Of a stretch of 64,000 bases of DNA, positions 8,507 through 62,560 are shown in pieces (position 1 is the first letter of the stretch; every line of letters starts with the position of its first letter). The stretch is from Agroathelia rolfsii (taxonomy: Eukaryota > Basidiomycota > Agaricomycetes > Amylocorticiales > Amylocorticiaceae). The translations under genes were made by a program, and so were the position numbers. The stretch spans positions 2,542,001 to 2,606,000 of the forward strand of contig JABRWF010000006.1 of assembly GCA_018343915.1 (NCBI GenBank), read 5' to 3'. The notes beneath the pieces are model-generated. The model did not search any database. It was given only the letters and a program-made list of their open reading frames with translations, and was not told the origin of the DNA.

Positions 8507-8632
8507 CGAATAGGCACGTTCGAAGATGTGATCAAGTCAAGATACGTATATAACAGGGACTCGGAGTGCTTAGAGTACCAGTAATATCAAGATAATCTGA
8601 ATCACTATCCGTAGTCCTAGCCTACAGAAACT
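8507..8632 (+). promoter_or_regulatory. Conserved upstream region with TATA-like box, copy C
   Basis: The segment TGGATCCGAATA..GTTCGAAGAT..ATCAA is shared with the region upstream of copy D (13520-13560) and in part with copy A. A TATATAA lies at 8547-8553, about 80 bases before the ATG of copy C, at nearly the same distance as in copy D. The bases from 8166 to 8506 hold no recognised gene. Confidence 0.5.
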
Positions 8633-13200: not shown

Positions 13201-13499
13201 GAAGTGGTTCATGTGATATTCATATTGTTGAATATTGGACTGTATAAGTATCATCTAACAATGGTCATGGGGTTGTTCTAAGCTTGCATTATGACCATAG
13301 TGCCGATCGCAATTTGGCATTTATTTGGTCACGTATGGACTTTATAATTCGGCACCGGTTTGATCGTCTGTAAGATTGTTTGTGTGTGCGTCAGGAGTAT
13401 CATTACCTGGCCGCCCAGGCGTCATGTGTGTAATATACTACGAGTTAGCTGAATGACCGATACGTAATAGTGTATAGCAGCGTTATCTGATGGATTGTC

Positions 13500-13667
13500 C
13501 CTTAACTAAATGATTTCAAGTTGGATCCGAATAAGCAGGTTCGAAGATTCAATCAATTTAGATACTTGTACTCATATAAACAGAGACTTCAGATGCTTAC
13601 AGTCGGTCGTGTTGAGACAACTTGAATTGCTATCTCCCTACATTGATACACAACTACGCTGACAGTC
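13500..13667 (+). promoter_or_regulatory. Conserved upstream region with TATA box, copy D
   Basis: The region shares blocks with the upstream flanks of copies A and C. TATAAA at 13575-13580 lies 88 bases before the ATG of copy D. Its conservation between paralogues and fixed distance suggest a core promoter. Bases 13201-13499 are the 3' flank of the relic and resemble 1506-1740; no gene is seen there. Confidence 0.5.
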
Positions 13668-16148
13668 ATGTCCCTCAAGAAAGCCCCCTACGGCACCTGG
13701 ATCTCTCCAATCACATCTGATGCTATCGCGCAGAAAGTATGGATCTTACAGCCCTTTCTATTGTTTCCTCGATGAATGCATAGTACGAACGCAGTTCTAA
13801 TTGACTCGGGAAATAATTACAGTCGATAAGCATCAGCGATATCATCGTTGATCCAGTCACGAAGAAAATTTATCATATTGAAGCTACAGAAAGCGGTACA
13901 TATAAGCTTGTAAACACCAAAAATAATGAGGACATTGTTGCCGGGGATGGGTGGGATGTCAGGTCTGGCGTACAAGAGTATGGCGGTGGTGAATAAAATC
14001 TGTGCTCGTAAACATGCATTTGGCAAGCTAATTAGAGGCTCTTTTACCCCCTCCACACGTACAGGTGCTGCCATAGCAAAAGATGGCAAATTCTACTTTT
14101 CAAACTACCCTGGTCCCGCCTATTCCGTGATTGAGGGAAAAATAGAGAGAATCACGCCTGGTTAGTGCCTTGTCATATATCATTCTTACATAACTTGAAG
14201 TCCTTACAAACCTTGTATCCTGATGATGGCAATAGAAAACAAGCCTTACCGCTACTCTGCGTTTGCAATCCATCCCACTCATTGCAATCTGATTGTGGCT
14301 ATCATGGAAGATCATACGATCGACAAGCCTGCTGATGTCGTAAACACGCTTGTCGTGATCGATACGAATGCCAAGGATGACGAGTCGCGACTCACCACGC
14401 TATTAAAGGGTGCGGACTTCTACATGAACCCGAGCTTCTCGCCAGATGGCAAACACCTGGCCTGGCATCAATGGTATGTACATGTATATCCAATCTTCTC
14501 ACTCCGTCGTAGAAGTACCCTCCTCATGACTTGTTCCCCATAATAGGGACCATCCTGATATGCCCTGGGAGGGCGGCTTGTTTTGTATTCAAGAGATTAC
14601 AATCAATGCACAAGGAAAGATTCAATTAGGGTCGAAAAAGTCCTGTGTCGGCAGCCCCGGACAGGTTAGCGCGCAATCTGGAGGCTGGGTAGACGCCAAC
14701 ACAACATCTTTCAACAATGACGAATCCGGATTCTGGAACCCCTGGGCTTGGGACTCAAAGACGGACACGTTCAGGCCGGTTCTTGGTCAACCGGTGAAGG
14801 AGGATTTTGACAAGCCTGCATGGACCATCGATGACGCCTCCTGGTGCGTCCTGAATGCCAAAGAGCATACAACGATATCCTACTCCTACCGCGGCGGACG
14901 CACTGTGCTGTATGTTGTGAACATCAAGTTGGGCAAGTTGACAGAAATCAAATCGTCTCCTTACGTCGACATCGACTATCTACGTCGCGTCGACGATACC
15001 CATTTCGTCTTTCTAGGTAGTCTGTCAGACGCGCCTTCTCACATCGCTCTCGGCAAAGTGTCCTCTACATCTAATGGTTATGCGGTCACATTCGAAGTGC
15101 TCAAGTCTACGATGGATGACAATCTGTACCCCAAGACAATAAGATCAGAACCCGAATCCAAGACACTTACCATCGACGGGCAGTCACTCTATGTGGTGCT
15201 CTATCATCCCAAGAATCCGGACTATGAAGGCTCGAGCATTGAGGGTGAGCTTCCGCCGTGTGTTGTGGGTGTCCACGGCGGTCCGACGTCGATGACGGAT
15301 CAGGGATTGAGTTGGGAGAAGCAGTATTATACGAGCCGTGGCTTTGCCTGGTGCGCTTGTTTCATCCAACAATCCATTGTCACTAATGGAGAGGTGATAT
15401 TTGATACTCCGATAGGCTGGATGTAAACTATCGCGGATCTTCTGGCTTTGGTCGTGAATACATCCAACGCCTGGCAGGAAAATGGGGAATCGTGGATGTG
15501 GCAGACTGCATCAGCGCTGTGCAACATCTCTCCTCAGATATCGACATCAAGCGCTCTGCTATCCGTGGAGGATCCTCGGGAGGCTATACCGCGTTGGCAG
15601 CTATTGCTAATGCGCCCGACCCAGGTCAAAAGCTGTTCGCCGCTGCGGCGTCGTATTACGGCATTTCCAATCTTGTGTTGTTAGCCAAGGATAGTGAGTA
15701 TATGTGCAATCATCTTTCTATAAGAGGTGGATTATAAACCCATTTTTCTTTTTCTTTTTTAGCGCACAAATTTGAGAGTCATTATATGGAAAAGCTTTTA
15801 GGTGGGACGTACGAGCAAATACCCAAGGTTTATGAGGAAAGATCTCCTGTCAACAATGCGAACAGGATTGTATCGCCACTCTTGGTAAGCAAAAAGCAGT
15901 GAACACAATCTCGTCAAAGCTGACAACTTTCTCTACTGGGGTAGCTCCTGCAAGGAACTGCAGACAAGGTTGTACCTCCAGAACAGGCCGTTAAGATCAC
16001 GGATGACATCCAGCGCAATCGTGGAGACTGTCAGCTTAAATTTTATGAGGGAGAGGGCCATCATTTCCGTCAGGCAAATAATCAGATGGATGCGTTGGAT
16101 AGGGAATTGTATTGGTATAAGCTATACTTCAAGCTTCGAAAGCCCTAA
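13668..16148 (+). CDS. S9 family serine peptidase, copy D
   Basis: Third intact tandem copy, 658 residues, same fold and likely activity class as copies B and C. Exons: 13668-13736, 13823-13988, 14065-14160, 14236-14473, 14547-15350, 15416-15693, 15763-15884 and 15945-16148. The first four exons have the same lengths as in copy C (69, 166, 96, 238). Motifs: HGG at 433-435, GGSSGG with Ser511, TADKVVPP with Asp598, and His630 in GEGHHF, where the usual Gly after His is a second His. The C-terminus ends in KLRKP, longer than in B and C. Intron 6 ends with a normal pyrimidine tract, unlike B and C. It is very close to copy C, indicating a fairly recent duplication. Confidence 0.88.
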
Positions 16149-32964: not shown

Positions 32965-33682
32965 CAGTCACCACCAAAAGTCTGTCACGCGGGCTTTCAC
33001 CACAATTTTTCTCATATTTCACCCACTTCTACACTGTTTGTCTTCAAATAAAAATTCATGCAGTATATTATAAGCATCCCTTGTAAGCCCGAAGTATTAT
33101 AATAGAGAAAAATACTATAGTTGGCAATTGGTGTGCAAATCAATGATTATTCATGAAAAATGGCAAAACCCAGCTCAGTAAATACAACATATTTTAAGAT
33201 TCTGATATTTTTCTCTGAAAATAGACCTAAGAAAAAAAAAAGGTTTGTGTAAGTTGAGTAGCTGGATAATAAGTTAGAAATTCCACAAGTTGGCTGTTTT
33301 GATAGTGTTTTAGTAGCACTTTCCAAGTTCCCTATTAAAATAGCCAACTTGTGGAATTTCTAGCTCATCATCCAGCTACTCAACTTACACAAACTTTTTT
33401 GATTTTGATTTTTCTTAGGTCTATTTTCAGAGAAAAATATCAGAATTTTAAAATATATTGTATTTACTGAGCTGGGTTTTGCTATTTTTTTATGAATAAT
33501 CATTGATTTACACACCAATGGCCAACCATAGTAATTTTCTCTATTATAATACTTTGGGCTTATAAGGGATGCTTATAATATACTGCATGAATTTTTATTT
33601 AAAGACAAACAGTATAGAAGTAGGTGAAATATAAGAAAAATTACGGTGAAAGCCTATGTAACAAACTTTTAGTGGTGTTAAG
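32965..33682. mobile_element. Long palindromic foldback element
   Basis: Two arms of about 340 bp are near-perfect reverse complements around a spacer of roughly 27 bases (33305-33331). For example, CAAATAAAAATTCATGCAGT at 33046 matches its complement near 33590, and AGTTGAGTAGCTGGAT at 33253 its complement near 33373. Differences between the arms are mostly transitions. The outer ends (CAGTCACCACCAAAAGT left, ACTTTTAGTGGTG right) recall Tc1/mariner-type termini and a TA abuts the left end, but the right boundary is uncertain. It encodes no protein, so it is a non-autonomous foldback/MITE-like element. Confidence 0.75.
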
Positions 33683-34468: not shown

Positions 34469-35069
34469 TGTCACGACCCCCTCCGCGCACAAGTGGCTCC
34501 CACTCCGACATTTCCCACATGTCCCCACTCACCCTCACCTACTATTATCCAACAACTAAAGACACCTCTCCGGCTCCCAACTTCCACTCTCCGCCCTCCG
34601 CGATTTGGGCGTTGGAACTAGCAACCCCTTGCTTGGCACCCAACTAAAGTCCCGGAGTCTTTTCCTCTTCTCATGTATCCTGTTTTCCCATCATTTTCCC
34701 CACACGTTCTGGTACCCTTGTTCACATAGATAGTTTCGGCCTATTCGCGCCCCGTATTCCGTTTCCCACTCTCCGTCTCACTTCATTTCTATTCCTCTTG
34801 GTATCCTCCTGCTACTATAGTATTTATACCGACCTAGCATGTACCTAGCTACCTCAGTTCGGAAATCAACTTAGTTCCCCTTCTCCTGTCTGACTCCTGT
34901 CCCGGACCACAACTAGGCAAGGGCCTGACACATACATCTTGGCCAAGTCCGGTCACCCCTCTCTTTTCCTATCCACTCTCCCATCTCTACTCCTGTTTAC
35001 TCTGTCTCCGCTTCTGTTCTGCTCCGCCCCTTCCCTTTTCTGCTATCCCTGTCTGTCCGAGACTTAACA
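34469..35069 (+). repeat. Gypsy-1 5' LTR (601 bp)
   Basis: Begins TGTCACGACC and ends GACTTAACA. It matches 49421-51033 (minus the nested insertion) and the copy split across 54389-58351. A pyrimidine-rich interior with TATTTATACC near 34825 could hold the element's promoter. Confidence 0.9.
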
Positions 35070-36342: not shown

Positions 36343-37198
36343 TGTCAAGGCTCACGCTCTTGACTATCTAAACAATAGAGGTGACCCCTACTCACACCAC
36401 AAACAGAGCAATGTACCGCTACTAGGTCCCAAAGATGTACTCCAAGTCTAGAAGACTTTCCACCAAAGGCTACTGTTGGCTAATGACTTGTTACTGCTTG
36501 CTTAGTAAAGAAGGGAGTGCTAAACACTCTGAGATGCTTAGATTCTTTCTTAGAGGGTAATAACTCTAAGTCACACTTTGCCCTGATTTATTAAGGGACT
36601 TGATATAGAGAGGGGGAGGTAGGTAATACAGCCTGTTCTATGGCTTGCTTAGGTCCTTATACAACCCCTAGGCTGACAAGGCACAAAGGGAGGGCAAGGG
36701 TGAGAGGGCTAGGACAATGAGCCTGAAGGCAAATGTATTAGTAAATAGTAAAGAGAGATGTACATGCTTATTTACTCACCTGAAGGCAAAAGGTCGAAGC
36801 TAAGGCCTTCAGGGAGTGTTACAGGGTCCTTATATAAGTTTCAGGGGTGGTCTGTGCACTTCTGAATGGTCTGTGCACAGAGACAGAAATAGAAAGGAAT
36901 GCTAAACATAGTACAAATGGATGACTGAGCATGATGGTGCAATCATTGCATCATCAGCTGATTGATCAAGAGTCTAGACTTGGAATGAACTAGAAGGGTC
37001 TAGACTCTGTTTACTAATAGGTACTGGTACAAAGGTATAATGATGGCCGGTCATATAACTAAGTACTCTGTAACCAATTGTCCTAGGCGGTCTATTATGA
37101 ATAAATAATGTGTAGAAAGTCCAAGAAAAATTGTAAAAATACAAGAAAAATACAGGAAAATAAAAAAAAATTAGGAGAGTCTGGGTGTACCCATGACA
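36343..37198 (-). repeat. Gypsy-2 3' LTR (856 bp)
   Basis: Pairs with 42566-43421. Solo copies of the same length occur at 45420-46275, 55658-56513 and 61705-62560. Confidence 0.92.
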
Positions 37199-37209
37199 TT
37201 ACCCCCCTT
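37199..37209 (-). other. Gypsy-2 polypurine tract
   Basis: On the minus strand AGAAGGGGGGTAATG lies directly before the 3' LTR and just after the pol stop (37212-37210). This is the expected plus-strand primer site for an LTR retrotransposon. Confidence 0.7.
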
Positions 37210-40200
37210 CTAAGGAGCATTTCCCCAAAACCGCCTATGTCCAATGCACCATGAGCCAGTAATAGATCTTTCTACTTGTGTTAGGTTCTCTACTGTCCTA
37301 AATGGAAGACTACCAAATGTAGTTGCTGAGATTCTTCTAGGAGCACTTGGATTTTCTCGATAAAACTGGGTAATCAGTCTTTTTGCATGTATATCTTGTG
37401 CAAATTCCCAGCTATCTTCTCCTGGATATCCCTTGTACTCTACTAAGAACTAGAGTTTCTTCCATCTTCCATGTAGTCGAGCATCCTTAATGTGTGACAC
37501 TTCCCATTCCTCTTCTCCTTCTACCTCTACTGGTGGTGGCTCTTCTGGGGTTCTACCTGGAATCTCGCTTTCCTGGTATGGTTGTAGAAGGTTTACATGG
37601 AAGACATTGTGTACATGCCAATTTTTTGGGATATTAATTTCATAGTTTAATTCCCCAATTCTTTTGACTACCTTATAGGGGCCTAGCTTTTTAGGGCTAA
37701 GTTTCCTACTTGGTTGTTTAGCAAACTTGATATTTCGTGCATCTAGCCATACTCTAGCTCCTGGTTCTAACTGGGGGAAACTTTTCTTTTTCTGATCATA
37801 GTACTGTTTCATAGTTTCCGCTGTTTTAGCTAGAGCTGCTTGAGCTTCTAGTTGGACCTCTTTTAGGTTACCTAACCAGTCTTGTGCTCCTATAGTCTTA
37901 GGCTGAGGCTGAGGGAGAATCTCCATTTCTGGCACAAACCCATAGTTGAGTTCAAAGGGTGTAAACCCTGTTGCTATACTCTGTCTTTGGTTTAATGCAA
38001 ATTCTGCCACCTCTAGGTTTTCTGCCCAATTGGTCTGCCTTTGGTTAGAGTAAATTCGTAAATAGGTTTCAATTTCTTGATTTAGCCTTTCTGTCTATCC
38101 ATCACTTTGTGGATGATAAGCAGTGGACAAGGCTGTTTTGATGCCTAATTTACAATGAATCTCTTTCATAACCTGGCTTGCAAATTAGGGGCCTCTATCT
38201 GTAGTCCAGACCTTAGGAACACCATGGAGTTTAAACACATGCTTTAGATATAATCCTGCTACCTCTACTACAGTCACTGCTTCAACAGTTGGGATTAGGT
38301 GACACATCTTTGTGAGTTTGTCTACAATCACTAGGATAGAGTCAAATTCTCCTGACTTGGGTAGTTTTACAATCATATCAGCTGTCACATGTTCCCAGGG
38401 TTTCTGCGGAGCGGGCAGTGGTTGAAGTAAACCAGGGGGTGGTTGGCGTGAACTCTTATTTGCAATACACTGGGGGCATGTGGTTACATATTCATTAATG
38501 AATTTAGTCATGCTTGGCCACCAATAATTGCGTGATACTAGTTCTAAGGTTTTATGTTTCCCTGGATGTCCTGCAGCTGGCGCATCATGGAATTTCTTTA
38601 CAATTTCTGCACACAGTTGGGTATCCTTTGGTACATAAACCTTTCCCCGGTATAGAACTAGGCCTTCTTCTTGGTTCCACTCCTCAATTCCATTTCGGAG
38701 CTTTACTGGCCCTAGATCTTTTAGCACCTGAAGAGCTTCTGCTACTTCTGGTTCTGGATTTGCTTTTCTGATCTGGGTTAGAAGACCTTTTTCTCCTTCA
38801 ACTGTAACATGTCCCCTTCTTCCAGCATTGATACGAAATAGGTGTGGGTTTAGTACAATTTACGCCTTATTGTCTTCTGCATTATCTTTATGGAAGTCAG
38901 GGCGGCGGGAGAGGGCATCAGCTCTACCATTATCACTTCCTTTCTTGTAGTGAATGAGGAAGTTGTATTCAGATAGGAATAATGACCATCTTGCTTGTCG
39001 TCTAGTCAGATCCTTAGATGTTTTCCAGTATTCTAAGTTTTTATGATCTGACCAGATTTCAAATGGTTCCTCTGTTCCTATTAGATAGTGCCTCCACTCC
39101 TTGAGCGCTCTAATAATTGCTAGCATTTCCTTATCCCAGATCTCATAGTTTTGCTCTGCTGGATTAAGAGATTGAGATAGATATGCGATAGGGTGCCAGC
39201 TACTATTGTCCTGCATTTGAAAGATTACTGCCCCAGTGGCAAAGTTGGAGGAGTCTGTTTCAACCCTAGTTTTTCTTTTTGGGTCAAACATTGCCAATAC
39301 TGGTGCAGAAACAAATGCATTCCTTAGCGCATCAAAGGAGTTTTGCTCCTCTTTAGTCCATTGCCATGCTACATTGCCTGTTAACCGATCTAGAGGTTTG
39401 CACAGGTCACCAAACCCCTTTATAAACCAACGGTAATAGTTGGCTAATCCCCTAAACTGTCTAATTTCTTTGACTGTCTTAGGGATTGGCTAGTCCTTAA
39501 TAGCTTGCACCTTTTCAGGCATCATGCGGATGGAATTATAACCAATTATTAGTCCTAGGAATTCGACTTGGTTTGCATTGAATTTACATTTCTCTGCATT
39601 CACATACAAGTCGTTTTCTTTCAAGCACCGCAGCACTTCTAGGACTAGCTCAGAGTGTTTCTTCTGAGTGTTTGATGCAATTAGAATATCATCAATATAA
39701 ACAAAGACTTTTCCTAATGCAATCAAATTGGCTAGAATCTCATCCATCATGCGCTGAAATGTGGCTGGTGCATTTGTTAAGCCAAAGGTCATTACTGTAG
39801 GTTCAAACAGTCCTAGAGGCGTCACAAAAGCCGCTTTGTACTCATCTCCTTCTTGGATCCGGACATTGTTATATCTCCATCTAAGATCTAGCTTAGTGAA
39901 GATTTTACTTCCACTTAGCTTATCTATAATTGTGCTAATAAGGGGGAGGGGGTAACTATCCTTCACCGTGATATCATTGAGTTTGCGATAGTCTTGTACT
40001 GGTCGTAGTACTCCAGATTTCTTTGGAATAAAGAAAAAGGGGGAGCTCATAGGGCTTTCAGATTTTCTAAGATAACCCTTGGTAAGATTTTCCCTAATGT
40101 ATTCATTCAAAGAATTCCTTTCCTTGACTGCAAGTAGATATACCTTAGATCTGCCTATAGATGCCCCTTCCTTTAGGATTATTTTGTGATCCCAAGGTTT

Positions 40201-40784
40201 CCGTGTAGGCATCCTAGTAGACTCCTCTTTTGAAAAGACTTGTTTATATAGGAGGTACTCTGTTGGTATTTCCACTGCATCCAAGACCTTTGCAGCATGT
40301 ATATGTTCCTTCCTCAACTCTACTGTTGCCTCCTTCCAGTCAATCTCAGGATTCTCTACTCTTAGCCAGTCTATCCCCAAGATAACATCTTCCTCTCCAA
40401 TATCAACTACACTCATATGTATCTCTTGCTCTACTCCTCCTGTCACCAAACTAACTATAATATACTCTGTAATTTTACCAATTTTGTTTGAGGAATTATC
40501 AATATTGTACAAAGGAATTGGTTGGGGAAGCGATTTTTTTGGGATTTGATTTTTATGTACAAAGTGTTTATTTACAAAAGTAGAAAAAGCGCCAGAATCA
40601 ATCATTGCAAGAGTATCAATAGAAAAGGACTGTCCACGTAATTCAATAGGTACGTGTAAATGTTGGGTATTTACCCCTAGTATAGAAGCAGAAATAGAAA
40701 AAGAAGAAACATCAGAAAATGGTACATAGTATTCAGTATTCTGTTCTTTTGGCTCCTGGGTTTTGGCCTTAACCTGGGAGCCTT
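37210..40784 (-). pseudogene. Gypsy-2 pol: protease, RT, RNase H, integrase, chromodomain
   Basis: Domains in order on the minus strand: aspartic protease (MIDSGAFSTFV near 40605; VILGIDWL), reverse transcriptase (LRPVQDYRKLND, FVYIDDILIAS near 39700), RNase H (TDSSNFATGAVIF, near 39260), integrase zinc site (HPGKH..CPQC near 38560-38470), catalytic core (VIVDKLTK, WTTDRGP, AYHPQSDG..TERLNQE), and a C-terminal chromodomain (VEYKGYPGEDSWE) ending at 37210. Stops at about 39491 (TAG for Trp), 38862, 38184, near 38083 and 37452 break the frame, each explicable by one transition. The frame is open right back to the gag stop, in the -1 frame relative to gag. It is not functional as it stands but only a few changes from intact. 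Confidence 0.88.
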
Positions 40785-42071
40785 TTAAAAACCTGCTAAT
40801 GCAAGTTGGTCGCGCATCTGCGTAATTTGCTCCTCATATGCTTCAAATCTTGTCATAAGGTCCCCTATAGATAGTGTTGTACTTGCTGCTACTTGTTGAG
40901 GCACTGGAGTTGTAGTCAAAGTAGTAGGTACATTAGGGGCGCTTGAAGTGGATGCTGCAACCCTAGCTGGATTCCTAGCTGGACGAGGAGGTGGGGCTTG
41001 TTTCCAGGGTCTAGTTCCTGGTGCTCTTCTGACTTTAGGACTTGTACAATCTGCTTGTACATAGCCAAACTGCTGGCAGTTAAAGCATTGCACCTGGCTC
41101 ATAGGGGTAGTTCCTGGGGTAGGAATCCCTGGGTTTATAGATCCTGGGCTTGGGTTGGAGCTTGTAGTAGCTGCTACTGTGGTGCTTATCGAGGAAGGTC
41201 CTTTTCCTTGGTTTTGAGACTTTGGATTCCAAACCCCCATCTCCTTAAGTGCACGTTCTGCTTCTCCTGCATTTTCTACGGCACTCTGAAAGGTTACCAT
41301 TGATCCCTTCCACCCTATCATTAGGTTCCTAATCCGCCAGTTCAGTCCAGCACAGTAGCGAATGCGCATATCCCCTTTTTCTAGCTCTACTGTATATGCT
41401 AACTTTGTGAACCAAGCTGTATAGTCCCTAATAGAGTGTATCCCTTGCCGGAAGTTCTGGATCTTTGTTAGGGCATCTGCCTTGTAGTCAAAGTTGCCAT
41501 ATGCAGCGACAAACTCCTCATATAATTCAGTAATTCCAAAATCTGGGTTTCCAGGCTTCTCTGCTTCTATAATTTCAGGAATGAAGTGAGCTGCCCAGTC
41601 TGCTGCAGATCCAGTTAGACAGCAAATAAACTGCTTGGCCTCACTCTGAGGGTCTCCATACAATTCTTCATTGTCTGACATCCATAGCTTCCAGTCACGG
41701 AAGAAGGTCCGGAATTTGCGTGCATCCCCATCATATTTCTCTGGCCTTGTTACGACCTCTTTAGGTTTGGGGGGACTAGGAGTATACCACTCCTCAATTT
41801 CCTTGTCTTCTCCTGTCTTGGACTTCTTTGTAGTAAAGTGGATTTTTTGTCCACTAGCAAAGCGTGTCATATCTGCATGCTGATCCTGCATGCCACCTAT
41901 CATTTTGAGGATATCTGCTTAACCTAGAGCTAGAAGCTCCATAGTCCGAGATAACCAAGAAATAGCTCCCTCTAAGGTTGCAGGGGCTCCTGAAGTGCCC
42001 CCAACTCCTTCAAGTTTGCCTTCCTCTATTTCCTCTTTGCGTTTTCCATGACGTGATGGGGCTCTAGACAT
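40785..42071 (-). pseudogene. Gypsy-2 gag
   Basis: Starts M-S-R-A-P-S-R at 42071 and is broken by one TAA near 41920 (CAA to TAA likely); an open frame then runs from 41903 to 40785. It shows a capsid-like core (RPEKYDGDARKFRTFFRDW, CCLTGSAADWAAHF, FRQGIHSIRDYTAWF). The zinc knuckle CFNCQQFGYVQADC has Tyr where the metal-binding His should be (CAT/CAC to TAT/TAC). A C-terminal coiled region follows. Gag is probably inactive because of the stop and the knuckle change. Confidence 0.85.
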
Positions 42072-42565
42072 GATTGGATGTAGTGTTGGAGAGGAAGGGA
42101 GTGATTGGTGATCCTATGTGTGATAGTGGAGCTATAGCTCAACACTGTATAAATCCTTTGGTCTTCTTCTTCCTAAGGCTGCAAGCGGACAGCCTTCTGG
42201 TAGTGTAGTAAAGATACTATCTACAAAAGCTCCTTATTTGTCAAAGCAGTTATACTCCCTTGTGAGGAGTCCCTAGAAGCAGCTGACTAACTCAGCAGTA
42301 ACGCCTTTGGGTAACAGCCCACAATTTCCCAGGAATGTACTGGTACTTTTGCAGCTATGCCTTAACAGGTTGAAAGGACGTAATTAAGGTCCCCAATTGC
42401 TTCTGCTAACAGTTCAATGACAAATAAGGCTCACAAGTGAAAGGTATAGTACTTGTATCTACAAAATCTTTTCCTTGCTTGTGCTGACTTGTAAGTGATT
42501 TATTTCTTACACAATCTTGGAGCTAAGGCTCTACAAGACTGGATCAGGTGTCAGCTTCGACCTGA

Positions 42566-43421
42566 TGTCAAGGCTCACACTCTTGACTATCTAAACAACA
42601 GAGGTGACCCCTACTCACACCACAAACAGAGCAATGTACCGCTACTAGGTCCCAAAGGTGTACTCCAAGTCTAGAAGACTTTCCACCAAAGGCTACTATT
42701 GGCTAATGACTTATTACTGCTTGCTTAGTAAAGAAGGGAGTGCTAAACACTCTGAGATGCTTAGATTCTTTCTTAGAGGGTAATAACTCTAAGTCACACT
42801 TTGCCCTGATTTATTAAGGGACTTGATATAGAGAGGGGGAGGCAGGCAATACAGCCTGTTCTATGGCTTGCTTAGGTCCTTATACAACCCCTAGGCTGAC
42901 AAGGCACAAAGGGAGGGCAAGGGTGAGAGGGCTAGGACAATGAGCCTGAAGGCAAATGTATTAGTAAATAGTAAAGAGAGATGTACATGCTTATTTACTC
43001 ACCTAAAGGCAAAAGGTCGAAGCTAAGGCCTTCAGGGAGTGTTACAGGGTCCTTATATAAGTTTCAGGGGTGGTCTGTGCACTTCTGAATGGTCTGTGCA
43101 CAGAGACAGAAATAGAAAGGAATGCTAAACATAGTACAAATGGATGACTAAGCATGATAGTGCAATCATTGCATCATCAGCTGATTGATCAAGAGTCTAG
43201 ACTTGGAATGAACTAGAAGGGTCTAGACTCTGTTTACTAATAGGTACTGGTACAAAGGTATAATGATGGCCGGTCATATAACTAAGTACTCTGTAACCAA
43301 TTGTCCTAGGCGGTCTATTATGAATAAATAATGTGTAGAAAGTCCAAGAAAAATTGTAAAAATACAAGAAAAATACAGGAAAATAAAGAAAAATTAGGAG
43401 AGTCTGGATGTACCCATGACA
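42566..43421 (-). repeat. Gypsy-2 5' LTR (856 bp)
   Basis: Partner of 36343-37198. Next to it, at 42541-42565, GGTGTCAGCTTCGACCTGA contains a short self-complementary pair (CAGGT..ACCTG) where the primer binding site should lie; I could not match it to a tRNA. Confidence 0.9.
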
Positions 43422-43426
43422 GCAAG

Positions 43427-46400
43427 GGTCGATGAGGCAAGTGATGATGGATCTGAACAAGCAAAACAGTGAGCAGCCCTCAAGACCCCGTACAGGTTGA
43501 GGGCTGCGCAATTCCACCACATACCCCCGTTATCATGAATTTACAGGCTTCCACCATAGAGCCGTCAAAATCCCTTGTCCTTTCATGTACTTCACCTTCC
43601 ATCTCTGATGACTCCGTACCTTTCAGCATCTTTGTAGACTCCGGCTCCTCCCACAGTTTTGTCGATTCATCCCTTATCAAATCCTTACCTACTACTTCTG
43701 TTCCTCCTGTAATACTCTGCCTTTTTGACGGAAGCTCTGCCAATACAATCACTGAGTCCATCTACCTCCTAGTCCGCTTTCCGTCTGGTAGCCAACATCA
43801 AATCTTGTTCTACGTCACTCCACTAGATCCATCTTGCTCTGCTGTCCTTGGTTACGATTGGCTAGCCCTGCACAATCCAATGATTGATTGGGCTAAAAAC
43901 CACATCTCGTTCAACCCCCAGACAGTTAAAGGTGGAAATCCAACCACCTTGTCAACCCCCTCAGCTCCGGCTAACTCTCCGTCATCATCAGCCTCTTTGC
44001 AGCCTCTATCTGCATCTACATATCCGTCTCCGCCCGCATCTGCGTATCCGTCTCCACCTGCATCTGCGCCTCCATCTCCGTCCCAGCCCCCGGCTATTCC
44101 AATATCCCTTGTAGGGGTAGCCACCTTCCTCCGCGCCTGCCGTACTAACTCCACCCCCATATACGCTTTAGACGTCCTGCCCAGTATGTCTAGTTGAGCG
44201 GCAACTGCTACCATGCCTGCCAATATGTCTTTACTCCCTATAGAATACCACGACTTTGTGGATATTTTCAGTGAAACAAAATCCAAGACACTGGCGCCTC
44301 ACCGCCCCTACGACCTCCGCATCGACCTGGAAGAGGGCTTGTCTCCACCCCTAGGACCCATATACTCCCTCTCTCCACCAGAACTTGAAGCCCTCCGCAC
44401 CTTCATAGACGAGAACCTCCGCTCAGGATTTATCCGCCCCTTGACCTCCACCTATGGCACTCCCATTCTGTTTGTAAAGAAAAAAGATGGTTCCCTCCGC
44501 CTGTGCATTGACTTTTGGGGACTGAACCGTATCTTGAAGAAGGACAGGTACCCGCTTCCGCTAATCTCCAACCTGTTGGATGCACCTTAGAAGGCTTGCC
44601 TTTACACCAAAATTGACCTATGCCACGCATACCACCTCGTCCGTATTGTAGAAGGTGACAAGTGGAAAACAGTCTTCCGAACCCGCTACGGCTCATTTGA
44701 ATGGAGGGTTATGCCGTTTGGACTCACAAATGCCCCAGCCGCCTTCCAGCATTTTATGAATGACATCTTCTCTGACCTCCTCGACGTCTGCGTGGTGGTA
44801 TACCTGGACGACATCCTTATATATTCTGATGAACCAAGTCAGCATACTGCGCAAGTCCGCGAGGTTCTCCGGAGACTCCGCAAGCACGGTCTATATGGCC
44901 ACGCTGACAAGTGCCTGTTTGGCGTTGATACTGTGGAGTACCTGGGGTACATTCTGTCTCTAGATGGCCTAACAATGGACAAATCCAAAATCCAGGCAAT
45001 TTAGGACTGGCCCAAACCACGCAAGGTAAAAGATATTTAGTCCTTCCTGGGCTTTGCAAACTTCTACCGGTGGTTCAGTCACAATTACTCCAAGATTGTC
45101 ATCCCACTAACCTGCCTGACCCGAAAAGATACTCCGTGGAACTTTGACAACAAATACCGCTCCGCATTCACCAAGCTGAAGGAGGCGTTCGTCTCCGCTC
45201 CAATCCTCACGCACTGGGCCCCGGATCAACAGCTCATAGTGGAAACAGATGCCTCCAACTATGCCATTGCCGGAATCCTCTCTATCACTTACCCTGACGG
45301 TGAAATCTGCCCAATTGCATTCTACTCCTGCTCCTTGTCAACCACAGAACTCAACTACAATACGCATGATAAGGAACTCCTGGTGATTTTCGAAGCATTC
45401 CGGATGTGGAGGCACTACCTGTCAAGGTTCACGCTCTTGACTATCTAAACAACAGAGGTGACCCCTACTCACACCACAAACAGAATAATGTACCGCTACT
45501 AGGTCCCAAAGGTGTACTCCAAGTCTAGAAGACTTTCCACCAAAGGCTACTGTTGGCTAATGACTTTTTACTGCTTGCTTAGTAAAGAAGGGAGTGCTAA
45601 ACACTCTGAGACACTTAGATTCTTTCTTAGAGGGTAATAACCCTAAGTCACACTTTGCCCTGATTTATTAAGGGACTTGATATAGAGAGGGGGAGGCAGG
45701 CAATACAGCCTGTTCTATGGCTTGCTTAGGTCCTTATACAACCCCTAGGCTGACGAGGCACAAAGGGAGGGCAAGGGTGAGAGGGCTAGGACGATGAACC
45801 TGAAGGTAAATGTATTAGTAAATAGTAAAGAGAGATATACATGCTTATTTACTCACCTGAAGGCAAAAGGTCAAAGCTAAGGCCTTTAGGGAGTGTTACA
45901 GGGTCCTTATATAAGTTTCAGGGGTGGTCTGTGCACTTCTGAATGGTCTGTGCACAGAGACAGAAATAGAAAGGAATGCTAAACATAGTACAAATAGATG
46001 ACTGAGCATGATGGTGCAATCATTGCATCATCAGCTGATTGATCAAGAGTCTAGACTTGGAATGAACTAGAAGGGTCTAGACTCTGTTTACTAATAGGTA
46101 CTGGTACAAAGGTATAATGATGGCCGGTCATATAACTAAGTACTCTGTAACCAATTATCCTAGGCAGTCTATTATAAATAAATAATGTGTAGAAAGTCCA
46201 AGAAAAATCATAAAAATACAAGAAAAATACAGGAAAATAAAGAAAAATTAGGAGAGTCTGGGTGTACCCATGACACTACCTTGAAGGCGCCTCCCTTCCG
46301 ATTGATGTGGTCACAGATCACAAAAACCTAGTCTACTTTTTCACCACTAAGCTGCTGACTTGTCGCCAGGCCCACTGGTCAGAATTCCTCTCTACCTTCT

Positions 46401-48082
46401 ACCTTGTCATTTGATTCCGCCTAGGACGCTTAGGAGAGAAACCCAACTCCTTCACTAGACAATGAGACGTCTACCCAAAAGGGAGAGATAGTGGCTACAC
46501 CAGCATCAACCCCCATAACCTCCGACCCGTCTTCACCTCCAAGCAGATCTCCGCATCCCTCCAAGCCACTGTACTGAAGGAGCCTGCACTTTAAGCCTCC
46601 GAACTTTTTGACCTAGAGAGCATCCACAATGATATCTGAGCTGCACTCTCTCAGGACCTAGTTGCACTCCAGTACCAGTCCACAACTTCACTAGATGCAC
46701 GTTGGACAAAGTCCAAGGAGCTTCTGTTTTACGATGGTCGCATCTATGTCCCCGACACCAACAACCTCCGGCTCTGCATCCTTTGACTCAAGCATGACTA
46801 CCCTACAGCAGGCCACTTTGGGCAGAACAAGACCTTCCAGCTAGTTTGGCATAAGTATACCTGGCCAGGGCTCCGCAAATTTGTCAAGGAGTACTACAAC
46901 ACCTGCGTTACATGCAAACATGGGAAGGCGGTCTGACACAAACTCTATGGCCTACTCCGCCAGCTCCCGATTCCAGAACAACTATGGAGCTCCATTTCTA
47001 TGGACTTCATTGAGCAGCTGCCACCCTTTACGGGCTACACTGCTATCCTTATTGTAGTTGACCACCTCTCTAAGCAAGGGATCTTCATTTCAACTCACAA
47101 TACCATTACTTCCCAGGACCTTGCCCGACTCTTTGTCACATACGTATTCTCAAAGCACGGAGTTCCAACACATGTTACCTCCAACCGTGGATTAGAATTT
47201 GTCTCCCACTTCTTCCGCTCTCTGGGGACCCTCCTGGATATGAAGCTCCACTTTATGTCAGGCTACCACCCCGAGGGCGATGGACAGACAGAATGAGTCA
47301 ACCAGACACTAGAACAGTACCTCCGCATATACTGTAACTATCAATAGGATAACTGGTCCGAGCTGCTTCCAATGGTGGAATTTGCATATAACAATGCCCC
47401 AAGCAAGTCCACCGGGGTATCTCCGTTCTTTGCCAACAAAGGCTACAACCCCTCCACCATCTCCGTTTACCCGGAACAAGACATCACCTCCGTCCGCGCC
47501 CTCGAGTTCGCAGTCGACCTGGATAGCCTCTACCAGGAGCTCCGTACCCAGCTCTCCGCCGCTCAGCGCCGATACCAGGCTCCGGCAGACAAGAAACGCC
47601 TCCCAGCCCCCAACTTCAAAGTTGGCCAGTAAGTATTCGTCTGCGCAAAGTTTTTCCACACCACTCGTCCATCCAAGAAGCTTTCTGATAAGTACCTAGG
47701 GCCCTACGAGATCATAGCATAAGCCAGGTTATCCTCCTTTACTCTCCGCCTCCCCAATTCCATGCGCTCGGTGCACCCAGTCTTTCACGTTTCCCAGCTC
47801 AAGTCTGCTCCACCAAACACTATCCCAAATCGCACACAACCTCCGCCACCTTTGGTGGAAGTTAACGGAGAGGTGGAGTACAAGATCTCCAAAATCCTAG
47901 ACTCTAAGATTGACAAGCGCCGCCATTGCAAGTTGATGTACCAAGTGCAATGGGCGGGTTATGAAGGAACTCCGGACGAAGAAGACTGGCTACCTGCAAC
48001 TGAACTTGCACATGCACAGGAGCTCGTCTCTGACTTCCACTCTCAATACCCCATCAAGCCAGGCCCCCTGGACAAGATCTAA
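43427..48082 (+). pseudogene. Gypsy-1 pol with chromodomain, interrupted
   Basis: Continuation of Gypsy-1 after Gypsy-2. Domains: aspartic protease (VDSGSSHSFVD near 43634; VLGYDWL), a Ser/Pro-rich linker with a short CATCTGCGTATCCGTCTC-type repeat (44005-44080), reverse transcriptase ([31 protein letters not shown] near 44800), and RNase H (VETDASNYAIAG near 45240). RNase H is cut by a solo LTR at 45420-46275. Integrase (MDFIEQLP, VVDHLSK, SNRGLEFVS) and a C-terminal chromodomain (YQVQWAGYEGTPDEEDWLP, near 47938) follow, with stop TAA at 48080. Stops occur at 44588, 45002, 45038, 47294, 47345 and 47630. The second catalytic Asp of integrase is Asn (AAC at 47183-47185). Dead copy. Confidence 0.88.
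45420..46275. mobile_element. Solo Gypsy-2 LTR in Gypsy-1 RNase H
   Basis: 856 bp, TGTCAAGG..CATGACA, same orientation as the LTR at 36343. Target duplication CTACC at 45415-45419 and 46276-46280. Removing it and one CTACC restores the RNase H reading (WRHYL then [16 protein letters not shown]). Confidence 0.93.
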
Positions 48083-48260: not shown

Positions 48261-49250
48261 TTAATCTTCCCCGTCCTCCAACTCCTCTGTTAGGTCCTCC
48301 GCTGCTCCACCCTCAGTCGCATCAATCTCTGCTGCCGCCTCATCATCGTCCACTGCTGCACCCACTTTGTCCCTTTTCTCTACTGTGGGTATGGCCGCGT
48401 AACCCCCCCTCCGCTCCTCCGCATCAACCAACCTCTCTAGCAACTGTACCAACAGCCCGGAGCAGTTCTCCAGAACCCTCCGGCTAGCTACGGCCTCCCT
48501 TAATAAGGCCTGCTGGACGGAGACAAGCTCCGCCAATCCCGGGACCTCCGCCCGCCTGCGTATCTGCTGGCAACTACTCCCCTCCGCAGCCTCCGCCACC
48601 TCCGACACCTCTGCCCTCGCCTTCTCCTTGGTTCGCATGCCCGTGGTCTGCAATGACGCGTCGTCATCCATCTGGCATACCTTATGCCTTTTGCGGCATG
48701 GCTGGCATGACCGCCGCGACCCCTCCACGTACCACATGCACGTGACACCCCTCCTCCAACAGGTCTGATACGTCCACCCCTGTATAACAACATTAGTCGC
48801 AAGTCACCAAGGGGAGGAGTAACGTACCGGCACCTCCCTGACTGCAGTACCTGCAGCCTCTATAACCCCGACTACTCGACGATGCTTGGCGGAAGGCGCC
48901 TCTGGCACCTCCACATCGGACCCCTCCGACACCCTCTGCAGTTGTCAAACGCGTTCCTTGCGCTCGCGCTCGTACTGCTCCCTAGCCTCCGCATGCGCAC
49001 GCTGCTGACGCTCCTCCCACTTGCGCATCTCCCTCTCCTCACGCTCAAGCCACTTGCGCTCCTCCTGCTGGCGCTGCTTGCATGCTTCCTGCTTGCGTCT
49101 CTCCCTCTCTTTGCGCGCCTTCCGCTCCATTTCCTCACGCTCCTTCCTCTTGCGCTCCTCACGTTTGTGCTGTTCTTTCTGCTGCCTTGCAGCCGCTAGT
49201 TGGGCCTCTAGGACCACGATATTGGCATCAAGCTCATAAAGGGAAGACAT
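48261..49250 (-). pseudogene. Antisense coiled-coil/Cys-cluster gene carried by Gypsy-1
   Basis: A minus-strand gene between the pol stop (48082) and the 3' LTR (49421). ATG at 49250 opens a strongly charged coiled coil (about residues 15-100, runs of Glu, Arg, Lys, Gln), broken near 48945 by TGA where CGA would keep the frame. An intron of about 49 nt (GTACGTTACT..ATACAG, around 48829-48781) then joins to an exon reading YQTCWRRGVTCMWYVEGSRR and SCQPCRKRHKVCQ, followed by an Ala/Glu-rich acidic tail ending GED and TAA at 48261. The Cys pattern (CxxC..RG..C, then CxxCRxxxxxC, with the first Cys now Tyr) resembles Cys-rich DNA-binding-like proteins common in Agaricomycetes. Role unknown; the present copy is probably broken by the TGA and the Cys to Tyr change. 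Confidence 0.65.
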
Positions 49251-49407
49251 TGGCAAGTGAAGCTAGTAGGTGGTGGTAGTGGTGGTGGTGTGGTAATAAG
49301 AGTTGGTTGTTGATGACCCTGCACACATACGCAAACATAGACCTACACGAACTATTTTTGTACTCTGACACTAATACAGCCACTAGTCCTTCGAAGGCTC
49401 AGGACCT

Positions 49408-49420
49408 AAAAGGGGGACAC
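49408..49420 (+). other. Gypsy-1 polypurine tract
   Basis: AAAAGGGGGACAC lies immediately before the 3' LTR, the expected plus-strand primer site. Confidence 0.75.
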
Positions 49421-51033
49421 TGTCACGACCCCCTCCACGTACAAGTGGCTCCCACTCCAACATTTCTAACATGTCCCCACTCACCCTTGCCCACTACCAT
49501 CCAACAACCAAAGACACCTCTCTGGCTCCCAACTTCCACTCTCCGCCCTCCGTGATTTGAGTATCGGAACCAGCGACCCCTTGCTCGGCGCCCGACCGGA
49601 GTCCCGGAGTCTTTTCCTCTTCTCACATATCCTGTTTTCCCATTATTTTCCCTACACGTTCTGGTACCCTTGTTCACATAGATAGTTTCGGCCCATTCAC
49701 ACCCCGTATTTCGTTTCCCACTCTCTGTCTCACTTCATTTCTATTTCTCTTGGTATCCTCCTGCTACTATAGTATTTATACCGACCTAGCATGTACCTAG
49801 CTACCTTAGTTCAGAAATCAACTTAGTTCCCCTTCTCCTGTCTGACTCCTGTCCCGGACCGTAACTAGGTAAGGGCCTGACACATACGTCTTGGCCAAGT
49901 CCGATCACCCCTCTCCTTTCCTATCCACTCTCCCATCTCTACTCCTGTTCACTCTGTCTCCGCTTCTATTCTGCTCCGCCCCTTCCCTTTTCTGCTATCC
50001 CCGTCTGTTGAAAGATTGAATATTTACAAGCTTCATATCTTTCCAATAATTCCAATGAATACTTCAAATAATCATCTAACATCATGTCATACATGATTAT
50101 TTATTTCATGATTTTACAACCGTTCATTGTTGAGATATTAACAATTCTTTACATGCATATATTCTTTTATTTAATATTTTCAATATTTCATTATATCTAA
50201 TCTTATCAAAGATAAGATTATCATATCAGAAGTCACTTGACTTTATCATTTATGAATATCTTTTTCATAAATATTAAACAATTCCATTTAAATATTCATT
50301 TCTAAATAATTATTGTGAATATTACTAATTGATTTTTCACGCCCTAGATCCTTGCTTATAAATCACCAAAATATTTACTAAGCAAGTTCATAATATTAGT
50401 AATATTTATAAAATATTACTAATACAGATCTAATAATAGGATATTGAGATCAATAGACATTTTACTTACTAATACTATACAAATTACTTACTAAGCACAC
50501 AGATTGCTTACCAAGCATATTATTCAGCAAATAGGAATATTACTAAGCTGATTTATAAGCTGATTTGTAAGCAACCCTTCTTACTAAGCGGATTAGATAA
50601 GCACAGGATTGGCTTACTAATCTTGTAGAAATTAGAATATTTTGTATTATATAAGCACCAGCAAATTCAGCTGGAAATGACAAGTTATTTCACTCGAAAA
50701 TAGTGAGTTAAATAGTCTACAAGACTAGCTCCTAGAGTACTAACTTCACCCTAGACTTACAAAGTCTACAAGACAAGACAACAAGCCTTTCCTAAAGGGA
50801 AACAAGTAGGTAGTCTCAAAGGGACACCGGCTACAGTCTTATCTTAGGTGTAACAAAGTTACTAATCGCTTTCACAAATAGGTTTTATTGCCTTTAAACC
50901 TATAACCCAATAGGCCATTAACTTTTCAAACAAGTAAGTTAGTTGTCTTTTAAATAGGTAACTAGTAGATTACAAGTAGTCTACATTACACCATTACCAC
51001 TAACTTTTAACACCGTCTGTCCAAGACTTAACA
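49421..51033 (+). repeat. Gypsy-1 3' LTR, split by another LTR
   Basis: 49421-50005 and 51018-51033 together match the 5' LTR. The break at CCGTC/TGTCC is caused by the LTR at 50006-51012, whose target duplication is CCGTC. Confidence 0.9.
50006..51012. mobile_element. Solo LTR (copia-like, 1007 bp) in the Gypsy-1 3' LTR
   Basis: Begins TGTTGAAAGATTGAATA and ends CTTTTAACA. The target duplication CCGTC is at 50001-50005 and 51013-51017. Its start and internal blocks (for example TAGTCTACAAGACTAGCTCC) resemble the Copia LTRs at 52168-53054 and 56938-57825, but the sequence is a distinct subfamily. Confidence 0.85.
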
Positions 51034-55657: not shown

Positions 55658-56513
55658 TGTCATGGGTACACCCAGACTCTCCTAATCTTTCTTTATTTTC
55701 CCGTATTTTTCTTGTATTTTTACAATTTTTCTTGGACTTTCTAAACATTATTTATTCATAATAGACAGCCTAGAACAATTGGTTATAGAGTACTTAGTTA
55801 TATGACCGGCCATCATTATACCTTTGTACCAGTACCTATTAGTAAACAAAGTCTAGACCCTTCTAGTTCCTTCCAAGTCTAGACTCTTGATCAATCAGCT
55901 GATGATGCAATGATTGCACCATCATGCTCAGTTATCCATTTGTACTATGTTTAGCATTCCTTTCTATTTCTATCTCTATGCACAGACCATTCAGAAGTGC
56001 ACAGACCACCCCTAAAACTTATATAAGGACCCTGTAACACTCCCTGAAGGCCTTAGCTTCAACCTTCTGCCTTCAGGTGAGTAAATAAGCATGTACATCT
56101 CTCTTTACCATTTACTAATATATCTGCCTTCAGGCTCATTATCCTAGCTCTCTCACCCTTGCCCTCCCTTTGTGCCTCATCAGCCTAGGGGTTGTATAAG
56201 GACCTAAGCAAGCCATAGAACAGGCTGTATTGCCTGCCTCCCCCTCTCTATATCAAGTCCCTTAATAAATCAGGGCAAAGTGTGACTTAGGGTTGTTACT
56301 CTCTAAGAAAGAATCTAAGCATCTCAGAGTGTTTAGCACTCCCTTCTTTACTAAGCAAGCAGTAAAAAGTCATTAGCCAATAGTAGCCTTTGGTGGAAAG
56401 TCTTCTAGACTTGGAGTACACCTTTGGGACCTAGTAGCAGTACATTGTTCTGTTTGTAGTGTAAGTAGGGGTCACCTCTGTTGTTTAGATAGTCAAGAGT
56501 ATGAGCCTTGACA
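55658..56513. mobile_element. Solo Gypsy-2 LTR (856 bp), reverse orientation
   Basis: TGTCATGGGTACACCC..GAGCCTTGACA, the reverse complement of the LTR at 36343. Target duplication TAGTG at 55653-55657 and 56514-56518. Confidence 0.92.
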
Positions 56514-56937
56514 TAGTGCCTAAAGATAGGAAATGCAGAGTTATGCTCTTTTGCGTGATGTGACATGTGATATGTCACAACCAGTGCAATAGTGAAAGGG
56601 AGCGGAAATAATGGTATACCTCTTTCTAAGCCTAAGACTTAGAACTAAGCTATGACTAAATAATAGACTATGGTTCAACTATGGTATACTATGACTTATA
56701 GGTAATATAATATAGTGTATATTGTATTACAGTGTTTATGGCATGATTTGTAGTTTTATGTAATAAATATTAAATACCTGAGTAATTGCATGATTGTTTT
56801 AAGTCTATACTAAATGAACCTAGGTATATGCTTGGTAAACCTAAATATATGCTTGGTAAACATAAATAAATGCTATTATGTCTATGGCATGGTACTACTG
56901 AGGTTGTAACAGTCCCCACTCACCCTTGCCCACTACT

Positions 56938-60480: not shown

Positions 60481-61704
60481 TTTGGTAATGTCTAAGTTTA
60501 AAAAGTCGTCCTCTTGATAATCATCATTTGATTGGTTTGTTTTAGATTTTCCCTTTTGAGGTTTCTTTCCTTTGTTAGGACAATTTGGGGGTTTCCAATT
60601 ATCCATATGTTCAGCTTCAGTGTGTTTGACATATTTTCCACACTTTTTGTAATAATTTTTATTACTTTGCTATTGCTGATTGTGGGTTTTGCCTTGGCCT
60701 TTGAATTTTTTTTTTGAATTTTTGCTGGCCTTTAGACATGTGGGATTAACTATGAGTTTTTCCTATATAAAGAGATTCCCTTATAGTTTGTTCTTGTTGG
60801 AGTTCTCTACGGACTAAGTTAATTGTAGCTTTTTCATATCCTTCCACTGCTCTGAGAATGCTTCCCCAGATCATTCTATATGTGTCTAGTAGAATTTCTC
60901 CAATACAAAATATAAAATCTTTTTCACCAATTGATAATCCTATGGCATTTACTCTGGTTTGGATCTCTTGCATTTTGGAAATTTGTGTAGCCATTGATTT
61001 TTTCATTTTAATCCTGTATAAGTAGAATTCAGTATGGTATCTTTGACCTTCTGCTAGTCTTTGAGCTTTAGCGGCTTCAAATATCTTTTTCCACATTTTA
61101 GATGCTGTTTCTTCAGTCATTAAAATGTTTGCCTAAGTTTTATTTACACATCCTCCAAGTAAACCTTTAGCACAATCATCTGCTTGATCCCATGCATTTG
61201 CAAGAATAACTTTCTTTTCTTCTCCCCAAGATATACCAGCTACTGAGGCTAGTTCTTATGGTAAGACTTCTACAATACCTAAGGTAGGTCTTTCAAGTGG
61301 TGTTAGATTGTCTTTTGGTAAACCTTTGGAGTACATTGGCCATATGCACAATGACTTGGCTAGAAAATAGAATTTGACTGAGAACTTTGCCCAATTTGAT
61401 CCATTAAAGACTGGGAATCCGGATAGTATATCTTTAATTAGGAGTTCTCCCATTTTTAGATAAATTCCCAAGATATAAAGTTATCTTAAATGGGGTATAG
61501 ATATATGCTATAGTTTTCAATAGCTTTATCTATGTTACTTGTAAGATATTCCTGGTGGTTTCATTCTAGGAATTCCTCAAAGTCTTTAAGGTTTAGACCT
61601 AGATGTATGCTATCCCAATATCCTGAATTATAGAGATAGATTATGTCATCTAATCTCTCTATATCTGTAAGACTAACTTTATCTTCAATTTCCTCCAGTG
61701 TAAA
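60481..61704 (-). pseudogene. Copia gag
   Basis: Gag of the copia type: FNGSNWAKFSVKFYFLAKSL (near 61410), WDQADDCAKGLL, then an open frame 61120-60746 with SMATQISKMQEIQTRVNAIG. A degraded zinc knuckle (YYKKCGKYVKH, near 60650, first Cys apparently lost) and a Lys-rich tail follow. The frame continues upstream of 61471 through TFTLEEIEDKVSLTDIERLD to the solo LTR at 61705 and resumes beyond 62560. Several stops are present. Confidence 0.75.
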
Positions 61705-62560
61705 TGTTATAGGTACACCCAGACTCTCCTAATCTTTCTTTATTTTCCCGTATTTTTCTTGTATTTTTATGATTTTTCTTGGACTTTCTACACATTATTT
61801 ATTCATAATAGACAGCCTAGAACAATTGGTTATGGAGTACTTAGTTATATGACCGGCCATCATTATACCTTTGTACCAGTACCTATTAGTAAACAGAGTC
61901 TAGACCCTTCTAGTTCCTTCCAAGTCTAGACTTTTGATCAATCAGCTGATGATGCAATGATTGCACTATCATGCTCAGTCATCTATTTGTACTATGTTTA
62001 GCATTCCTTTCTATTTCTATCTCTATGCACAGACCATTCAGAAGTGCATAGACCACCCCTAAAACTTATATAAGGACCCTGTAACACTCCCTGAAGGCCT
62101 TAGCTTCAACCTTCTGCCTTCAGGTGAGTAAATAAGTATGTACATCTCTCTTTACCATTTATTAATATATCTGCCTTCAGGCTCATTGTCCTAGCCCTCT
62201 CACCCTTGCCCTCCCTTTGTGCCTCGTCAGCCTAGGGGTTGTATAAGGACCTAAGTAAGCCATAGAACAGGCTGTATTGCCTGCCTCCCCCTCTCTATAT
62301 TAAGTCCCTTAATAAATCAGGGCAAAGTGTGACTTAGGGTTGTTACTCTCTAAGAAAGAATCTAAGCATCTCAGAGTGTTTAGCACTCCCTTCTTTACTA
62401 AGCAAGCAGTAACAAGTCATTAGCCAATAGTAGCCTTTGGTGGAAAGTCTTCTAGACTTGGAGTACACCTTTGGGACCTAGTAGCAGTATATTATTCTGT
62501 TTGTGGTGTGAGTAGGGGTCACCTCTATTGTTTAGATAGTCAAGAGCGTGAGCCTTGACA
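61705..62560. mobile_element. Solo Gypsy-2 LTR in Copia gag, older copy
   Basis: 856 bp; begins TGTTATAGGTACACC, where other copies have TGTCATGGGTACACC (C to T and G to A), and ends GAGCCTTGACA. Flanks GTAAA (61700-61704) and ATAAA (62561-62565) are a target duplication with one transition. Removing it joins the gag frame. Confidence 0.88.

Follow-up and report, generated by a model that had tools for sequence, protein, structure and literature searches.

A predicted spliced antisense gene for a Zn2Cys6-like protein lies between pol and the 3′ LTR in a chromovirus family of Agroathelia rolfsii

What is a gene doing on the strand opposite to pol at the 3′ end of a fungal chromovirus, and does it belong to the element that carries it? 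The locus that raises this question lies in a 64,000-nucleotide stretch of Agroathelia rolfsii DNA (contig JABRWF010000006.1, here C6, positions 2542001-2606000), hereafter the window, which was compared with the 37.67-Mb, 8-contig genome to which it belongs. The chromovirus spans 34469, the start of its 5′ long terminal repeat (LTR), to a 3′ LTR at 49421-50006, and the gene occupies the minus strand between pol and that repeat. Sequence comparison confirms this region as a real, protein-coding antisense gene of a chromovirus family. It stands out from chance because sister copies carry it, the intron site is common to them, the proteins of two subfamilies, A and B, are similar, and the ratio of nonsynonymous to synonymous substitution (dN/dS) is low. 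Judging from its motifs, the gene most likely encodes a nuclear protein that dimerizes and binds DNA, acting either as a regulator or as a targeting factor.

The gene runs from an ATG at 49250 to a stop at 48263-48261, and the two predicted exons (Table 1) form one frame of 313 codons plus the stop. An earlier note, written from the letters of the window, had described an intron-containing minus-strand gene in these coordinates, within about 1.3 kb between pol and the 3′ LTR. Both the two-exon model, from 49250 to 48261, and the spacing between the pol stop (48082) and the LTR (49421) agree with that description, and the window protein contains the charged N-terminal half, cysteine motifs, and acidic tail that it listed. 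The layout thus stood, but the note overlooked an in-frame TGA within exon 1 (48947-48945) and a tyrosine in place of the first of six cysteines, where the window copy reads TYQTC and copies L002 and L003 read CQTC. Because of these two lesions, we regard the window copy as a decayed member of its family.

Better-preserved members are found elsewhere in the genome. A DNA search returned at least 11 places including the window copy, at least 8 of them on C6, and a protein search returned 14, three of them weak. In subfamily A, copies L002, L003, and L017 have no in-frame stop; the remaining aligned copies hold 1-13 each. Subfamily B is represented by the sister element L053, whose pol is open over 1260 aa and includes reverse transcriptase, RNase H, integrase, and a chromodomain. 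Its gag is split into two adjacent open reading frames (ORFs), and only 253 bp of its 5′ LTR pair with the 3′ LTR. The L053 antisense gene is open over 345 codons with a 47-nt intron. The predicted introns of both subfamilies interrupt the same codon (VP|GRTC in A, IP|GRVC in B), and a single two-sequence BLASTP comparison of an A and a B protein gave E 7e-19. The antisense proteins of A and B are 39-40% identical, whereas their chromodomains are 82% identical, which indicates that the antisense protein evolves faster than pol.

The substitution pattern indicates constraint nonetheless. Between L002 and L017, dN/dS is 0.27 over 304 codons free of stops, and 0.35 when only transversions are counted. 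The other five frames of the same pair give 0.35-1.47 for all differences and 0.54-2.58 for transversions, and the lowest of them shares its third positions with the true frame. Other A pairs, mostly involving decayed copies, range from 0.26 to 1.00. The antisense gene is under purifying selection between open copies, so that the absence of selection, which the earlier note had named as fatal to its proposal, is not what these copies show as a rule. Pairs of B copies that include decayed members give dN/dS of 0.57-0.78, and 1.36-5.52 for transversions alone, and lend no support for constraint. In addition, long open frames by themselves are weak evidence in GC-rich DNA: the 180-codon frame of the window, in a GC-rich stretch, is matched or exceeded by 23 of 300 dinucleotide shuffles. 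Frames as long as exon 1 of L003 and of L053 arise in 67 and 43 of 300 shuffles of equal composition, and other L053 frames are also long. These counts favor the view that the frames are accidents of composition or mark a non-coding antisense region. We nevertheless consider that view extremely improbable given the conservation of the protein, its cysteine spacing, the intron site, and dN/dS, together with a 322-codon frame in the more distant copy L070 that only 3 of 300 shuffles reach.

The distribution of the gene was surveyed from a chromodomain search in which 150 of 341 candidates were scored. This search returned 30 loci (L023-L052), of which about 1.4-1.5 kb downstream of each pol was inspected, and presence was defined as a tblastn match to an A, B, or C protein (subfamily C is described below) at E 0.01 or better. 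A homologue on the strand opposite to pol was found at 16 of the 19 loci with 58-100% chromodomain identity, whereas none of the 11 loci with 47-48% identity gave a match. Most sister loci examined thus carry the minus-strand ORF that the earlier note proposed to look for, and its concern that sister elements might lack the ORF applies to L030. There, pol and the block that adjoins the polypurine tract (PPT) are only ~0.25 kb apart, which is why we score the gene as lacking. This B-like element (C1:426975) retains pol and the PPT block and is probably a deletion derivative. Locus L034 holds a short DNA remnant of a C-type end, and L035 has a B-type gene in the expected orientation about 9.5 kb away, which insertions would have separated from its pol. 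The antisense gene matches no Pfam family above cut-off, as might be expected of a transduced host gene carried as a passenger without function for the element. Such an origin is quite improbable, however, because the gene occupies the same place and orientation in three subfamilies with divergent pol (A, B, and the interrupted C) and its open copies in subfamily A differ from one another at a dN/dS far below 1. Transduced genes in other elements are, moreover, described as limited to one or a few copies (PMC11963269).

A third lineage extends the family. When 46 residues encoded antisense in L039 were used as a probe, 22 places matched, the source included, all of C or C′ type, on C1, C8, and other contigs, several of them near contig ends. 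In L038, L039, and L040, pieces of the C type follow pol on the opposite strand, and all three are interrupted. Several C′ places encode a protein that begins MAPRNN and continues with a charged coil, a predicted intron before ACDTC, the cluster CX2CX6CX9CX2CX6C, and an acidic tail. Because the L070 frame is also open through its intron, that intron stands as a prediction. Profiles of A plus B and of C′ match each other (94.9% probability, E 4.8e-8), and the cluster falls within the 55 aligned columns. For all 28 pairs of eight C′ copies, dN/dS is 0.18-0.42 (transversions 0.15-0.90); six of the eight hold 1-6 stops. For L065 and L070, the two copies without stops, the value is 0.20 across 290 codons. 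We found no match to B pol within ~700 bp 3′ of the gene at L062-L069 or in 8.3 kb at L074. Common units and LTR-like ends occur at C′ loci, and a peptide encoded upstream, in the same orientation as the gene, has 38 matches. C′ is a remote paralogue family and is not counted here as proof of the antisense arrangement. The repeat-rich surroundings of C′ and the lack of a B pol match over these distances would fit a separate mobile unit with a zinc-cluster gene that inserted beside pol without being a chromovirus component. We judge this very unlikely, given that in A and B the gene sits exactly between the pol stop and the PPT, that the PPT-adjacent block is conserved between them, and that no ends of an inserted unit were seen in either.

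The cysteine cluster is the most informative part of the protein. Zinc binuclear clusters follow the consensus CX2CX6CX5-12CX2CX6-8C, and the antisense proteins agree with this spacing. All six cysteines, as CX2CX6CX10CX2CX6C, are intact in five distinct copies among L001-L057, namely L002 and L003 of subfamily A and L053, L032, and L022 of subfamily B; L070 also conforms, with a loop of 9 in C′ as compared to 10 in A and B. In L017 the fourth cysteine is a tyrosine. Pfam Zn_clus (PF00172) scores 11.4 bits for A and 12.5 for B, below its gathering score of 21, and its half-profiles match in swapped order; for C′ it is not among the Pfam matches at E 1. We therefore use the label Zn2Cys6-like. 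The rows of a VIA-align comparison were filled by the fungal Zn2Cys6 family (GAL4, PUT3, PPR1), with weak fold matches. Together with the charged coil and the basic patches KRRR and KRRK, the cluster suggests a nuclear dimeric DNA binder. The description "DNA-binding-like" given earlier is thus consistent with the spacing and the fold matches, while DNA binding itself stays a candidate property.

These features lead us to a tentative reading, to which we give nearly even weight, that this is an accessory coding gene of one fungal chromovirus lineage, antisense and spliced once, whose product acts as a dimeric nuclear DNA-binding regulator or tether. Splicing cannot remove an intron from the genomic RNA when that intron runs antisense to it, which is the established logic of intron-marked elements. 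Since it lies on the opposite strand, reverse transcription leaves the intron in place, and it would persist through transposition cycles, which accounts for the presence of an intron in a retroelement; it follows that the gene is presumably read from its own antisense transcript. That transcript would probably be driven by a promoter either in the ~170 bp that separate the ATG from the 3′ LTR or within the LTR, and would be spliced once. The protein, if expressed, could dimerize or oligomerize via its charged coiled coil, enter the nucleus via KRRR and KRRK, and bind DNA through the cluster, with the PPT-adjacent inverted repeat or the LTR as candidate sites. Once bound, it might regulate how the element is transcribed, in the sense or the antisense direction, or keep pre-integration complexes at chosen sites. 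Expression, dimerization, nuclear entry, DNA binding, target, and role are all inferred here, and among the roles we would rank regulation of the element first, targeting second, and counter-silencing third.

The PPT-adjacent block is common to copies of subfamilies A and B. It has seven exact matches genome-wide, as compared to none for a reversed control pattern, and five of the seven are in gene-bearing copies (window, L002, L003, L017, and L053); by coordinates the other two are near L041/L020 and L022. The block is a candidate for a role in priming the plus strand, in antisense transcription, or as a binding site of the antisense protein.

Chromodomains are established as targeting modules in other chromoviruses. 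The antisense protein might likewise act as an integration-targeting factor or chromatin tether that guides integration together with the pol chromodomain by binding particular host DNA or chromatin, a role suggested by its DNA-binding-like motif and by the skew of DNA copies toward C6, which could reflect targeting. Segmental duplication could equally account for the skew, as could the survival of copies in heterochromatin, and the chromodomain already supplies targeting; we consider this role rather unlikely. The mutational record bears on another possibility. Recent A copies (L001-L008) differ almost only by transitions, about half of them plain CpG changes. L001 and L005 differ by 116 transitions and no transversions (54 plain CpG, 24 more with both bases differing). 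Judging from this spectrum, decay of the A copies is RIP-like (resembling repeat-induced point mutation) or methylation-driven. Near-exclusive transitions of this sort would give purpose to a protein or antisense transcript that hinders DNA methylation or a RIP-like process, and so would the faster change of the antisense gene (0.27) relative to the chromodomain of the same elements (0.05 for L024-L037 and L025-L037, from few changes, 18 synonymous and 4 not). Fast change fits relaxed constraint as well, and the gene-bearing copies are heavily mutated nonetheless, which leaves counter-silencing distinctly improbable.

We return to the reading of the gene as an accessory regulator or tether to compare it with known systems. 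HBZ is spliced and encodes a leucine-zipper protein that is not known to contain a zinc cluster, and the likeness to it that we describe is one of arrangement, with no sequence relation claimed. The earlier note knew of no named system of this kind, yet in plants the elements Retand, Grande, and RIRE2 are described as carrying ORFs on the antisense strand, after pol and ahead of the 3′ LTR, and human T-cell leukemia virus type 1 (HTLV-1), with its antisense HBZ, is a retroviral case (PMC11963269). As in Retand, the extra antisense ORF here holds the same element position and is kept across families, and the Retand protein is presumed to act as a DNA-binding regulator of its element, as we propose here (PMC11963269). 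Retand differs in being a non-chromovirus plant lineage, with ORFs that mostly encode a TRP28 domain (PF04195) rather than a cysteine cluster, and with a pol-3′ LTR region of 2.9-6.6 kb as compared to ~1.3 kb; the word "intron" is absent from the main text on Retand, whereas an intron is predicted here (PMC11963269). TRP28 gave no Pfam match to the window exons at E 1 or to the L002 and L053 proteins at E 10. Like our gene, HBZ is an antisense gene of an LTR element, and its product is nuclear (PMC11963269). A bolder and doubtful version of our reading holds that fungal chromoviruses have their own HBZ- or Retand-like regulator, derived from a Zn2Cys6-type protein with swapped half-clusters. 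The gene family would then be old, with members in several LTR element lineages (A, B, C, and perhaps C′), and by recognizing the PPT-adjacent inverted repeat its protein would switch the element between transcription and integration, with the antisense intron marking a gene never passed via its own mRNA.

Host and fungal proteins offer further comparisons. GAL4, PUT3, PPR1, and other Zn2Cys6 factors (PF00172) share the cysteine spacing; the antisense protein scores below the Pfam cut-off, its half-motifs look swapped, its coiled coil is N-terminal to the cluster, and its gene is retrotransposon-borne. PacX of Aspergillus nidulans resembles it in having an N-terminal coiled coil, a later zinc binuclear cluster, and a nuclear location, but is a 661-residue host protein with Leotiomyceta homologues, a typical cluster, and a coil 221 residues before the first cysteine (PMC4832277). 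Novikova et al. 2010 marked an "add. ORF" of unknown function in fungal Gypsy elements, partly basidiomycete chromoviruses as here (Figure 3 legend, PMC2864245); the available text gives no strand, intron, or cysteine motif for it, and some of these ORFs may be genes of the kind described here. Captured ORFs in the LTR elements of bdelloids add no antisense case in the accessible part of PMC5408684. No fungal antisense LTR-element gene was recognized from the titles and abstracts of open-licence PMC papers.

Database searches returned one relative. Window residues 101-240, with X at the stop, found none among 1569 candidates from a protein database of 5.8 billion, whereas a profile of four open copies (7983 candidates scored) found one credible protein, P0001, from a Joint Genome Institute (JGI) metagenome (E 1.9e-27, 49% identity, 46% of the query). 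P0001 continues 11 residues past EVP, the A intron donor site, and then ends, which on inspection suggests an exon 1 that was left unspliced. Two other profile matches look bacterial, scored low, and were dismissed. An exon-2 profile returned nothing, 600 pattern matches in viral contigs included no relative, a plasmid search yielded none, and exon 2 matched nothing in the PDB by sequence at E 1. A promoter and terminator scan upstream of the gene was empty, but its models are bacterial and uninformative for a fungus. By its sequence, the gene differs in protein kind from the known plant and retroviral antisense genes; antisense genes at this element position are already known.

The host element is a chromovirus by domain order (protease, reverse transcriptase, RNase H, integrase) and C-terminal chromodomain, as seen in L053 pol and in the Chromo match of the window. 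Across 588 aligned bases, its two LTRs show 46 mismatches and no gaps (92.2% identity), and a PPT was read beside the 3′ LTR.

Table 1. Coordinates of the chromovirus, its antisense gene, and nested insertions in the window
Feature	Position	Strand	Basis or remark
5′ LTR (TGTCACGACC...)	34469..35069	+	end set by eye
Nested Gypsy element, reverse orientation, 857-bp LTRs 36343-37200 and 42565-43421	36343..43421	-	repeat families
gag of nested Gypsy element	40785-41903	-	Pfam Retrotrans_gag
Host element pol, protease part (RVP_2)	43469..44197	+	Pfam RVP_2 22.2 bits, cut-off 20.3
Host element pol, reverse transcriptase fragment	44711..45004	+	Pfam RVT_1 E 6.5e-22
Solo LTR inside pol, repeat family of the nested element's LTRs	45420..46276	+	direct repeat family D1
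Host element pol, integrase core fragment	47000..47296	+	Pfam rve 25.8 bits, below cut-off 32.6
pol C-terminus with chromodomain	47762..48082	+	Pfam Chromo 34.9 bits, cut-off 25.1, E 1.5e-8
Antisense gene exon 2: Zn2Cys6-like cluster, helical segment, acidic tail	48261..48779	-	first Cys is Tyr in the window copy
48-nt intron, GTACGT...CTAAT...CAG, directly 5′ of Cys-cluster exon	48780..48827	-	predicted
Antisense gene exon 1: basic patch and charged part resembling a coiled coil	48828..49250	-	splice model; L002, L003 open
PPT-adjacent block TAGGTCCTGAGCC-N-GAAGGAC, inverted repeat GTCCT-N11-AGGAC	49386..49408	-	candidate site between gene ATG and LTR
Polypurine tract AAAAGGGGGAC	49408..49418	+	direct reading, adjoins LTR start
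3′ LTR	49421..50006	+	likeness to 5′ LTR stops ~50006, where another repeat starts

The window shows several other repeats. One 857-bp LTR family occurs five times in both orientations (36343-37200, 42565-43421, 45420-46276, 55658-56514, and 61703-62560) at ~95-98% identity, a pattern that we read as recent bursts of nested insertion. Nested inverted repeats at 32969-33677, with arms of 74-192 nt and a 26-nt center (I10, I14, and I15), make up either a foldback element or a long palindrome. At 2474-15710, three to four coding-like stretches that resemble one another are dispersed (several repeat families among D6-D14); by resemblance they are perhaps tandem S9-peptidase-like paralogues.

Most accessory genes known to lie antisense in LTR elements come from plants and retroviruses. 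Fungal chromoviruses with a conserved gene of this sort, interrupted by an intron, would add an independent case, in organisms with tractable genetics. A candidate DNA-binding protein beside a conserved candidate site makes the role of the antisense gene directly testable, and L030, which keeps pol and the PPT block, offers a natural comparison for targeting or spread.
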